Shown here: positions 59,738-63,705 of the stretch, piece by piece | Numbering within the stretch: position 1 is the stretch's first letter | Layout: every line of letters begins with the position of its first letter | Source of the DNA: an uncultured Coriobacteriaceae bacterium | Lineage (GTDB): Bacteria; Actinomycetota; Coriobacteriia; Coriobacteriales; Atopobiaceae | DNA: 64,000 bases | NCBI GenBank assembly: GCA_948439405.1 | Contig: CAOJNB010000003.1 | Span: 1 to 64,000 of the forward strand | Reading direction: 5' to 3' | Made by a program: the position numbers and the translations under genes | The notes under the pieces: model-generated | Databases searched by the model: none | Seen by the model: the letters and a program-made list of their open reading frames with translations, nothing else | What the model was told of the DNA's origin: nothing

Positions 59738-60838
59738 CTAGATCCGGACGGGCATGAGCAGGTACAGGTAGCTCGTGGCGTCCAGCGAGCGGAAGACGGC
59801 CGGGCGCGTGGGGTCCTGGAGGTCGAGCGTCATCGTGTCCTCCGGGCAGGCCTGGAGCCCCTCGAGCAGCAGGCGGTTGTTGAGCCCGATCGTCATCGAC
59901 GCCCCCTCGACCGCCGCGGAGACGGACTCGGAGGCCTCGCCCTGGTCCGTCGAGACGGAGCTGAGCGTCGCAGTGGCCGCGTCCGCGTCGAAGTCGAAGC
60001 GGACGGCCGGGTTGTTCACCGCGACGACGGCCACGCGGCGCAGGGCGGCGGACATCTCGGCGACGTCGAAGGTGACGCGGCAGGACGCGGAGTCGGGCAG
60101 CAGGGCCGCCGCGTCCGGGTAGTTGCCCTCGATGCGGCGGGAGACGTAGGTCGTGGTCCCGTAGACGAAGACGACCTGGTTCTCGGTGGACCCCACCGTG
60201 ATGGTGCCGGAGTCCGACGGCAGCGAGATGACGTCGTGGAACGAGGCGCCGGGCACGATCATCGAGAAGCCCTCTGCGCCGGCGGGTGCCTCGATCGCGG
60301 CCTCGCACACCGCGAGGCGGATGGAGTCGGTCGCGACGAGGCGCAGCGTGCTGCCCTCGACGGTCATGGAGATGCCGGTGAGGACGGGGGGCGACGCCTC
60401 CTTCGACACGAAGCGGTACACCTTGCCCACCATGTCCTCGAGGACGGCGGCGGGCAGCTCGATGGAGCGCTGGAGCTCGATGGGCGGGAACTCGGGGAAG
60501 TCCTGGGGATCGAGGGTGGCGAGGCGGAAGTGCGCGCGGCCGCAGGAGATGTCGAGCGTGCTGCCCTCGCCCTCGAACGTCACCGCTGCGTCCGGGAGGC
60601 TCTTCGCGATGCTTGAGAGCATCCTTCCCGAGACGACCGTCTCCCCCGGCGCCTCGACGTTGGCCGCGAGCTCGTGGCGGATCGAGATGGTGAGGTTCGA
60701 CGTCTGCAGCTCGAGCGTCCCTTCGGATGTGCGCAGGAGGATGCCGGAGAGGATGGGGAGCGTCGAGTTCGACGCGAGCCCCTTGCTGACGATCCCGATC
60801 GCCCGCGCGAGGGCGGACTGGCTGACGGTGAACTTCAT
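59738..60838 (-). CDS. dnaN: DNA polymerase III sliding clamp
   Basis: 366-aa beta clamp: three repeated domains, N-terminus MKFTVSQSALARAIGIVSKG and C-terminus YLYLLMPVRI, the clamp hallmark. SD AAGGAGACG. Separated from dnaA by 258 bases that hold box-like sites. Confidence 0.98.
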   Translation of the reverse strand: MKFTVSQSALARAIGIVSKGLASNSTLPILSGILLRTSEGTLELQTSNLTISIRHELAANVEAPGETVVSGRMLSSIAKSLPDAAVTFEGEGSTLDISCGRAHFRLATLDPQDFPEFPPIELQRSIELPAAVLEDMVGKVYRFVSKEASPPVLTGISMTVEGSTLRLVATDSIRLAVCEAAIEAPAGAEGFSMIVPGASFHDVISLPSDSGTITVGSTENQVVFVYGTTTYVSRRIEGNYPDAAALLPDSASCRVTFDVAEMSAALRRVAVVAVNNPAVRFDFDADAATATLSSVSTDQGEASESVSAAVEGASMTIGLNNRLLLEGLQACPEDTMTLDLQDPTRPAVFRSLDATSYLYLLMPVRI

Positions 60839-61096
60839 GGGCGTCTCCTTCTCGCTCTTCTCCCCGTCTATCTCTTTATAGGTAATACATAGGTCGGTAA
60901 TAGTCTTAGTAGGGTCTGTCGAAATGTAGACAACCGAGGTTCTGCCAGGTAGTGACCGAAATCTGACACGAGATGTTTCTTCATTCGGTGTTCGGTCCGT
61001 CTACACCGGAAGTATCGCCCGAAAACCTTCTACAGGAACCCGCAACTTTCCGACACTCCTCGACACGCTTCCGACAGAGTTCCCTACATCCCTCCG
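60839..61096. other. dnaA-dnaN intergenic region, candidate oriC part
   Basis: 258 bases, AT-richer at the dnaN end (around 60873-60915, with TATAAA and several AT runs, a possible unwinding/promoter zone). Near dnaA it holds a tandem, evenly spaced set of NNNYCNACA-like nonamers at 61026-61034, 61047-61055, 61057-61065, 61068-61076 and 61080-61088; TTGTCTACA is present inverted near 60922-60930. Origin assignment is inference from location and motifs. Confidence 0.5.
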
Positions 61097-62644
61097 TCAG
61101 CCGCCTTGCAGGTCGTTGCGAATGCGCTCGACCAGGTCGTGGAGGGTGCGGTCCTTCCGCCTGCGCTCGTCGACCCATTCGATGCTGTGCTTCACGGTCG
61201 CATGCTTCCTGCCGCCGAACCGGTTCCCGATCTCGACGAGCGTCATGCCGGTGAGCTCCCTCGTGAGCCAGATGGCCACGTGCCGCGGCGGGGCGACCTC
61301 CTTGGTGCGCTTGTTGCCGACGATGTCGGCGCGGGAGACGCCGTACTCGGCCGCGACGGCGTCCTGGATCGCCTCGACCGTCACCACCTGGTGGCCCGGC
61401 TTCCACCGCTTCGCCGCCTCGGCGACGATCTCGTCCGAGGTGATGGGGCGCCCCTCGCTCCGCTCGATCTGGGTGGCGCGGATGAGGCAGGACTGGCAGA
61501 ACGCCTCGATGACGCGGATGTTCGAGCCCGCGCGCTCGGCCATGAGCTCGAGGTCTTCCTCGGAGAGGGTGCCGTCGAGCGCCGGCATGTGCTCGCGCCC
61601 GGCGTCCTCGCGCAGCCTGGCGCAGAAGGCCCTGACGAGCGCGAGCTTGAGCTCGTACTCGGGGGTGCCGATGGAGCAGGAGAAGCCCGAGTCGAGGCGC
61701 GAGGTGATGCGCTCGTCGAATCCCTGCGAGCCCATCCCGAGGTCGCTCGGCGAGCGGTCGGCCGCGAGCACGATCTGCTTGCCGTGGCTGCTGAGGTAGT
61801 TGAAGAGGTCGAAGAAGAACTCGGTCGTGTTGCCCGTCGGCTTCAGGTTCTGGATGTCGTCGATGATGAGGACGTCGACGTCGCGGTAGTTGCGCTCGAA
61901 CTCGTCCTTGACGCTCTTCTCGGTGTTGACCATCGCCTGGGTGTAGTCGTTCGTGAAGTCGTGCGACGTCCGGTACACGCAGATCCGCGTCGGGTCGTTC
62001 TGGATGACGTAGTTTTGGATGGCCTTGAGCAGGTGCGTCTTGCCGAGCCCGCTCTTCCCGAAGATGAACAGCGGGTTGTACGACTTGTTGATGCCGTTCG
62101 CGACCTGCTTCGCGGCCGAGAGGGCGATGGCGTTCTCGTTGCCCTCGATGAAGCGCTCGAAGGTGAGCCGCGAGTCGACCTCGGTCACCTGGCTGACGAG
62201 GCTGCTCGCCGCGCGCGGGCCCTCGCCTCCCCGCATCCCGCCGCCCGCGCCCTCGCGCACGGGCTCGGGACGCTCGTTTCCTCCGCTCGGCCTCGCCTCG
62301 CCGCGCGCCGACAGGCGTTCGAACTCGGCGCGCCCGATCGTCGCCTCCCCGGCGAGCGCCGCCGCCGGCGCCGTCTCGGCCTGGGAGAGCTCGACGACGA
62401 GGGAGACCGGCGCGAAGGCCGCCTGGCGCAGCGCCGGCTCGATGGACGACGCCTCGTTCGAGAGGGTCCGCTGCACGAAGCGCGCGGGCGTGGCGACGGT
62501 GAGCGTTCCGTCGTCGAGCGAGAGCGCCACGCAGCTCCTCATCATCTCGACGAGGGGCTGCGCCGAGCCCTCGGCTGACATCAGGCCGATCGTGTCCTCC
62601 CAGAGCGCGGCGGCGTCGGATGCGGTTGACGGTTCGGTGCCCAT
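61097..62644 (-). CDS. dnaA: Chromosomal replication initiator DnaA
   Basis: 515-aa AAA+ initiator. Domain I (about 1-90), a Gly/Arg/Glu-rich linker (about 95-145), AAA+ core with Walker A FGKSGLGKTHLLKAI (about 196-206) and Walker B VLIIDDIQNL (about 258-266), and domain IV HTH. SD GGGAGAGGG. Odd: the DNA-reading signature GGR-D-H-(T/S)-T-V reads GGRKHATVKHS (about 477-487). Thus the positions of E. coli Asp433, Thr435 and Leu438 are Lys480, Ala482 and Lys485, while His434 and Thr436 are kept. Confidence 0.97.
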   Translation of the reverse strand: MGTEPSTASDAAALWEDTIGLMSAEGSAQPLVEMMRSCVALSLDDGTLTVATPARFVQRTLSNEASSIEPALRQAAFAPVSLVVELSQAETAPAAALAGEATIGRAEFERLSARGEARPSGGNERPEPVREGAGGGMRGGEGPRAASSLVSQVTEVDSRLTFERFIEGNENAIALSAAKQVANGINKSYNPLFIFGKSGLGKTHLLKAIQNYVIQNDPTRICVYRTSHDFTNDYTQAMVNTEKSVKDEFERNYRDVDVLIIDDIQNLKPTGNTTEFFFDLFNYLSSHGKQIVLAADRSPSDLGMGSQGFDERITSRLDSGFSCSIGTPEYELKLALVRAFCARLREDAGREHMPALDGTLSEEDLELMAERAGSNIRVIEAFCQSCLIRATQIERSEGRPITSDEIVAEAAKRWKPGHQVVTVEAIQDAVAAEYGVSRADIVGNKRTKEVAPPRHVAIWLTRELTGMTLVEIGNRFGGRKHATVKHSIEWVDERRRKDRTLHDLVERIRNDLQGG

Positions 62645-62661: not shown

Positions 62662-62720
62662 TGTAGAAAACCTACGAGGATGTAGATAACTCATTATACG
62701 GGGCAGGCGAATGTTGAAAA
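62662..62720 (-). promoter_or_regulatory. dnaA: dnaA promoter with three DnaA-box-like nonamers
   Basis: On the minus strand: TTTTCA (-35, complement of 62715-62720) and TATAAT (-10, complement of 62693-62698) with 16 bases between. Box-like nonamers TTTTCAACA (62712-62720), TTATCTACA (62681-62689) and TTTTCTACA (62662-62670) overlap the -35 and lie just after the -10, as expected for DnaA autoregulation. Confidence 0.65.
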
Positions 62721-62727
62721 CCTCGGC

Positions 62728-63705
62728 CTACCCCTCGATCTGCGAGAGACACGCGCGTCCGAGCTCGGTGAGGTGGCGCTTGCGACCGCGCTTGACGAGG
62801 ACGCCGAGGTCGTCCAGGCGCTTGAGCTCGCGCGACCACGTGGGCTGCGAGCCGCCATAGGAGGCGACCAGGTCGGACGGGCCCACCTCCTCGTGCTCGC
62901 CGAGGTAGCAGACGACCTGCCTGCCACGCACGCCGAGGTCCCCCGCCGCCGCGGTGGACGGCGCGACCTCCTGCGCCTGGGGCTTGTGCAGCGGGGCCAC
63001 GGGGATGGAGGCGTCGTCCTCGGGCCGCGTCGAGATGGTGACGACGGTGCCGTGGCTCAGGTTGTCGCGGATGGTGAGCGAGCCGCCCTTGTCCAGCATG
63101 TACTGCTGCGCGAGGGGGAGGCCGCTGCCGACGCCGCGTATGTAGCGCTTCATCTCCTCGGTCGCCGAGGTGGTCCCGTACTCGAGGGCGCGCGTCTTGT
63201 CCCTGATCCCGGGGCCCTGGTCCGAGAAGCGCAGGGTGTTGCCGGCGTCGAGGATGGAGATCGTCGGCGCGATGAAGTAGGCGTGGATGTAGTTCTCCAC
63301 CACCTCGCGGATGATCATGAAGGGGATGGTGCCGCCCTGCTCGTGCGAGAGCTGGTTGACCGTGCGCGTGATCTCCTCGAGGTAGTCGCGCACGGGCATC
63401 GGCTGGATGGTGACCACGCGCGGGGTGACCGAGGGGTCGTCGTAGACCGCGATGCGCGCGGGATAGCGCACCTCGTCGACGGACGGGAGCTCGCTCTCCC
63501 TCGCGCCCCGCTCGTCCGTCCCGTCTCCGACGAATGTGTAGAAGCCCTCTGCCACGTCCCGCTGCCCATCCTTCGACAGTCTTTCGACGAAATGTTGAAA
63601 GTTTTCAAAACCATTCGCCTGGAGCGTGGAACTTTCGACATTCGTTGAAAAGTTGTAGATAACCTCGGCGAACGACCCTGTTATCCATGGGGTCAAGCAT
63701 ACCAT
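62728..63705 (-). CDS. GHKL-ATPase / winged-helix protein next to dnaA
   Basis: 325 aa as drawn from the ATG at 63705; a GTG at 63555 is an alternative, and neither has a strong SD. A Bergerat (HSP90/histidine-kinase-like) ATPase fold lies at about residues 125-235: N-box REVVENYIHA, G1 DQGPGIRDKT, G2 GVGSGLPLAQQYMLDKGG. No phospho-accepting His domain is visible. The C-terminal ~70 residues look like a winged helix (DLGVRGRQVVCYLGEHEEVG, WSRELKRLDDLGVLVKRGRK). Lies between dnaA and rpmH, genes that are adjacent in most bacteria. Function unknown; a nucleotide-switched transcription or replication regulator is one reading. Confidence 0.7.
   Translation of the reverse strand: MVCLTPWITGSFAEVIYNFSTNVESSTLQANGFENFQHFVERLSKDGQRDVAEGFYTFVGDGTDERGARESELPSVDEVRYPARIAVYDDPSVTPRVVTIQPMPVRDYLEEITRTVNQLSHEQGGTIPFMIIREVVENYIHAYFIAPTISILDAGNTLRFSDQGPGIRDKTRALEYGTTSATEEMKRYIRGVGSGLPLAQQYMLDKGGSLTIRDNLSHGTVVTISTRPEDDASIPVAPLHKPQAQEVAPSTAAAGDLGVRGRQVVCYLGEHEEVGPSDLVASYGGSQPTWSRELKRLDDLGVLVKRGRKRHLTELGRACLSQIEG
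63593..63689. other. DnaA-box-like cluster near the origin
   Basis: Five nonamers near TTWTCNACA: CTTTCAACA (63593-63601, inverted), CTTTCGACA (63632-63640), TTTTCAACG (63643-63651, inverted), TTATCTACA (63654-63662, inverted) and TTATCCATG (63681-63689). They fall inside the N-terminal part of the GHKL gene as drawn. Confidence 0.5.

Follow-up and report, generated by a model that had tools for sequence, protein, structure and literature searches.

Throughout the family Atopobiaceae, to which the window belongs (the whole stretch of DNA that was analysed, 64,000 nucleotides long), the replication initiator DnaA lacks Asp433 of its DNA-binding domain IV (E. coli numbering), and the box motif near dnaA is shifted from TTWTCMACA in an Asp433-bearing sister family to TTWTCDWCA in the Asp433-less family. 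It is probable, from comparison of the sequences, that Atopobiaceae DnaA is an ordinary chromosomal initiator in which the specificity of the base-reading helix of domain IV changed family-wide and in which the boxes changed with it. The key change is the loss of Asp433 rather than the gain of Lys, and the right scale at which to view it is the family. The co-evolution of residues and boxes that the original prediction put forward is well supported as a pattern. As a cause it is something that we infer, because the association amounts to one evolutionary event and several residue changes are linked within it, and no special role of Lys emerged.

The initiator gene of the window was recognised by profile search and by synteny. 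The 515-aa open reading frame matches the Pfam profiles Bac_DnaA (PF00308, 162.1 bits) and Bac_DnaA_C (PF08299, 84.9 bits), both above cut-off, and thereby unites in one protein the AAA+ ATPase domain and the C-terminal helix-turn-helix domain IV that define a DnaA. The score against the NCBIfam equivalog TIGR00362 was 336.8 bits, below the naming cut-off of 343.9 bits, which is read here as divergence and not as non-membership, since the shortfall concerns a naming threshold only and the match (residues 15-511) covers the full profile. Only one PF08299 match was present in the 1.54-Mb draft genome of 34 contigs, indicating a single DnaA, and the gene has dnaN on one side and the rpmH region on the other (an rpmH-like reading frame starts at about 63884, by eye only), the single-copy state and synteny being those of a chromosomal dnaA. 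The features of the gene and its neighbour are as follows:

59738..60838, minus strand: dnaN, DNA polymerase III beta subunit (TIGR00663, 264 bits; synteny)
61097..62644, minus strand: dnaA, replication initiator, 515 aa (PF00308 and PF08299 above cut-off; TIGR00362; sole PF08299 match of the genome)
61178..61378, minus strand: domain IV helix-turn-helix (Bac_DnaA_C) of dnaA (PF08299 profile match)
61184..61216, minus strand: altered signature GGRKHATVKHS, aa 477-487 of DnaA (alignment)

Directly upstream of dnaA, at 62728-63705 on the minus strand, is a gene encoding a histidine-kinase-like ATPase domain with a weak helix-turn-helix match (HATPase-HTH); across the class, 118 of 128 loci have a homolog of it on the upstream side of dnaA. 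The homology mostly starts at about residue 33-51, which places the probable true start near 63555 and would make the box module described below noncoding. As a conserved neighbour of dnaA, the HATPase-HTH protein could regulate initiation.

Alignment with B. subtilis DnaA, in which the equivalent segment is GGRDHTTVIHA, bore out the reading of the window signature as carrying Lys, Ala and Lys at positions 433, 435 and 438: K480 corresponds to E. coli D433, A482 to T435 and K485 to L438, with H434, T436 and H439 kept. The segment had been placed at 61178-61214, which is the right place but a few bases off. In the classical signature GGRDH[ST]TV, position 433 is Asp and position 435 is Thr or Ser; the window DnaA has Lys and Ala there.

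To set this protein among its relatives, 128 dnaA loci were gathered from the class and aligned. Asp433 was absent from all 48 intact Atopobiaceae domain IVs, being replaced by Ser in 37, Thr in eight and Lys in three, while the DnaAs of the class outside the family carried Asp433 in 76/78 cases and His in 2/78. Within the same 48 proteins, position 435 was Ala in 44 and position 438 Lys in 32; Arg399, Arg407 and His434 were each kept in 48/48, and Thr436 was also unchanged. Comparison of the family with the rest by Jensen-Shannon divergence placed column 433 at the top of the domain IV columns tested (1.00) and column 435 second among the contact residues (0.80), and column 433 alone separated the two sets without overlap. 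The emphasis placed originally on Lys was not sustained, as Lys433 is a minority state (3/48 family members) and the boxes of its bearers are not clearly distinct from those of members with Ser433 or Thr433. In a tree of DnaA computed without the signature columns, the Atopobiaceae were monophyletic with support of 99, and as one clade they point to a single loss of Asp433 at the family base; Lys433 arose about three times in separate places within the already Asp-less family, once in the lineage of the window genome. As the main loss is single, the genome counts here and the box counts below are not independent replicates.

That the altered signature is due to chance, or to a divergent or mis-assembled DnaA, would be in keeping with an incomplete draft genome of 34 contigs and with a protein just below the TIGR00362 cut-off, but the same change recurs across about 35 genera (48 genomes), in which reading frames are intact and synteny is conserved, and the family alignment refutes this reading, which is left with next to no probability. 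Within Actinomycetota, a search of 396 genomes for further losses of Asp433 with the DNA pattern FGG[R/S]-[S/T]-H returned only Atopobiaceae and one non-DnaA match; the pattern is blind to Lys and requires the FGG context, such that absence elsewhere is not proved by it. In one single-contig Atopobiaceae genome (L048, G012:C1:509000-517500), the dnaA frame stops inside domain IV and the remainder is found in a short frame interrupted by a TAA, reflecting either a sequencing error or a broken helix-turn-helix.

DnaA boxes were then counted as TTWTCNACA from 1.5 kb upstream to 350 bp downstream of each dnaA, with shuffled sequence as a control. The motif far exceeded shuffled expectation in every group (shuffles gave about 0.1-1.6 per letter per group). 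At position 6, the Atopobiaceae had A126 C10 G43 T35, i.e. C in 10/214 boxes, compared with A42 C29 G0 T0 in f10, a sister family, and A28 C36 G2 T2 in f2, another sister family of the Coriobacteriales, both of which bear Asp433; the other families of the order had A6 C20 G2 T4 and the other orders of the class A20 C96 G2 T1. G and T at position 6 are numerous only where Asp433 is gone. As A6 is common in the Asp433-bearing sister families too, A at position 6 is not new to the Atopobiaceae. De novo 9-mer counts gave TTTTCAACA, TTTTCGACA and TTTTCTACA in the Atopobiaceae, and TTTTCCACA or TTATCCACA as enriched in the other groups; TTTTCATCA was enriched in Atopobiaceae noncoding DNA (29, versus five in all other groups). 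Genome-wide counts of the C6 and G/T6 9-mers were near background or not family-specific, indicating that the signal is local to dnaA. The window genome itself has eight exact TTWTCNACA copies in 1.54 Mb, four of which lie in the roughly 1 kb that precedes dnaA, and the boxes of this form reported at the outset are consequently present, although the true family pattern is TTWTCDWCA, with position 6 rarely C and position 7 sometimes T.

Two candidate explanations of the box counts were rejected. Base composition does not account for them, as the Atopobiaceae loci span 39-69% G+C and C6 is avoided throughout. An effect specific to Lys was likewise not seen: exact boxes in the three Lys433 lineages totalled A9 T6 G0 C1, with no clear difference from Ser or Thr.

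A module scan, in which only positions 1-5, 8 and 9 were scored and positions 6 and 7 were left free, revealed, between rpmH and dnaA, a set of four boxes in two convergent pairs that is common to the Atopobiaceae and f10. Offsets are 0, 22, 62 and 84 in the Atopobiaceae and 0, 23, 53 and 75 in f10, the spacing between pairs (62 and 53 bp) being family-specific. The module exceeded the score cut-off in 38 of the Atopobiaceae loci scanned, in 16/16 f10 loci and in zero shuffles. The window module (63570-63662) scored 23.5, and the highest score of any shuffle was 20.5; the window's predicted boxes are the following:

60925..60933, minus strand: box-like TTGTCTACA in the dnaA-dnaN intergenic region (motif match)
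62662..62670, minus strand: predicted DnaA box TTTTCTACA, upstream of dnaA (motif match)
62681..62689, minus strand: predicted DnaA box TTATCTACA, upstream of dnaA (motif match)
62712..62720, minus strand: predicted DnaA box TTTTCAACA, upstream of dnaA (motif match)
63570..63578, plus strand: module slot 4, box CCTTCGACA, offset 84 (module scan)
63593..63601, minus strand: module slot 3, box CTTTCAACA, offset 61 (module scan)
63632..63640, plus strand: module slot 2, box CTTTCGACA, convergent partner, offset 22 (module scan)
63654..63662, minus strand: module slot 1, box TTATCTACA (module scan)

Position 6 of the module was A95 C1 G25 T31 in the Atopobiaceae and A46 C18 G0 T0 in f10, and position 7 was A120 C1 G0 T31 and A64 (64/64), respectively. 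By Fisher's test on these related genomes, the two families differ in C6 (p = 7e-10), in G/T6 (p = 9e-11) and in T7 (p = 9e-6). The classical box TTWTNCACA, which has C6 and A7, is therefore not the box of this family, in which C6 fills 1/152 slots and T7 31/152; relatives that share the altered signature do not use standard TTATCCACA boxes, the use of which would have counted against the original prediction, and relatives with Asp433 have C or A. The T7 boxes cluster at module slot 3 (22/38 Atopobiaceae genomes) and also occur just before dnaA. From their position and the clustering of boxes, the module and the boxes at the dnaA start are a putative origin. No module at the family spacing was found in G019, G145 and G230, which belong to the Atopobiaceae genus g19 and have Thr435 restored or retained, nor in G002, which has Gly435, and the origin layout of these genomes may differ.

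The module lies directly upstream of the HATPase-HTH gene, which is itself conserved with dnaA, and the non-C boxes could in principle be sites of another regulator, such as the product of that gene, instead of DnaA boxes. This is very unlikely, given that the motif is the classical DnaA box save for positions 6 and 7, that every intergenic region around dnaA contains it and that, in other orders of the class with the same neighbour gene, it merges gradually into TTATCCACA. Recognition by DnaA is therefore the reading carried forward, the boxes remaining predicted ones.

Under this reading, Asp433, a residue that reads the 3' portion of the box, would have been replaced by Ser, Thr or Lys at the family base, accompanied in most members by Thr435 to Ala and Leu438 to Lys, and the boxes would have moved from TTWTC[C/A]ACA to TTWTC[A/G/T][A/T]CA, an amino base no longer being required at position 6, C6 becoming nearly excluded and T7 allowed. 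A possible explanation is that the bases found with Asp433 (C6 or A6, and A7) present major-groove amino groups as hydrogen-bond donors to the Asp433 carboxylate, and that without this residue G and T would become usable at position 6 and T at position 7. DnaA would bind the box clusters upstream of dnaA (the rpmH-side module and the dnaA-start boxes) and between dnaA and dnaN, and so bound would start replication and probably regulate its own gene. The larger change is at box position 6, whereas the published contact of D433 is with position 7: D433 and L438 have been assigned to the position-7 bases of both strands (PMC8235120), and R399, P423, D433, H434, T435 and H439 have been listed as the residues that take part in specific box interactions (PMC7561715).

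The order of events could also have been different, the box having changed first or through Pro423, Thr435, position 405 or Leu438, with loss of Asp433 as a consequence or passenger. This has an appreciable probability, though one clearly short of even. The Atopobiaceae also stand well apart from the rest at P423, T435 and position 405 (the changes include T435A, P423A and L438K), P423 is already missing from most of the order's remaining families, in which A6 has become common, and G068, an Asp-to-His433 relative outside the family, keeps C-type boxes. Against it, no other column separates the family as cleanly as 433, G/T6 is numerous only in the absence of Asp433, and in three Atopobiaceae members that have Thr435 the boxes are still mostly non-C, albeit on few counts. 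As the other His433 relative, G056, had zero exact boxes in the census, the two together neither confirm nor exclude causation.

A further alternative is relaxed selection only, in which positions 6 and 7 became neutral once Asp433 was lost and no new preference arose. The presence of three bases at position 6 and of two at position 7 is what this would predict; it is nevertheless unlikely, as C6 is so nearly absent in genomes of up to 69% G+C and as position 7 is never G and only once C, such that discrimination remains. That C6 is nearly absent points to a newly acquired preference at position 6 rather than to mere relaxation. A stronger version of the favoured reading, in which specificity and boxes changed together, is a partly orthogonal initiator-box pair, whose DnaA actively rejects C6 and whose slot-3 T7 boxes are special low-affinity or nucleotide-dependent sites. 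This is put forward tentatively, at a little under an even chance; if true, Atopobiaceae DnaA would bind TTATCCACA poorly and the slot-3 T7 boxes would act like E. coli position-7 variants.

Compared with the classical DnaA/TTWTNCACA systems of E. coli, B. subtilis and C. difficile, the Atopobiaceae share the fold, the single-copy gene, the synteny, Arg399, Arg407, His434, Thr436 and His439, and box positions 1-5 and 8-9, but have lost Asp433, mostly carry Ala435 and Lys438, have A, G or T rather than C at position 6 and may have T7. The sister families f10 and f2 share the TTWTC-ACA frame and common A6 (the rpmH-side module being shown for f10) but keep Asp433, A7 and C or A at position 6, with almost no G or T. 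The T. maritima motif keeps C at position 6 even though its DnaA has Ser at the Asp433 position, a point against the favoured reading. T. maritima DnaA, an independent lineage with changed base-reading residues, has Ser at the Asp433 position in our alignment and recognises a different, 12-bp motif (PMC7561715), providing a precedent for joint change of DnaA and box; its non-classical motif is longer, whereas the Atopobiaceae keep the 9-mer frame and change only positions 6 and 7. In the unrelated mollicutes, a DnaA-box motif TT(T/A)TCAACA has been proposed, in a paper that doubts its coverage of true boxes (PMC3322544); its A6 is that of the commonest Atopobiaceae box, and that paper describes neither G/T6 nor T7. 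In E. coli, Caulobacter and H. pylori, ATP-DnaA boxes altered at position 7 are known (PMC8235120), and these likewise depart at the base that D433 and L438 contact, but these C7 boxes are weak boxes of an Asp433 DnaA, whereas T7 in the Atopobiaceae is mainly in one fixed slot and Asp433 is gone. Among the papers searched, none dealt with Coriobacteriia DnaA boxes.

In practical terms, most Atopobiaceae boxes would escape origin finders that use TTATCCACA or TTWTNCACA, whereas TTWTCDWCA finds them. The family-wide loss of Asp433, with boxes moved at the matching positions, represents a natural experiment on how an initiator that is essential changes together with its numerous sites, and the Atopobiaceae offer a testable residue-to-base code.
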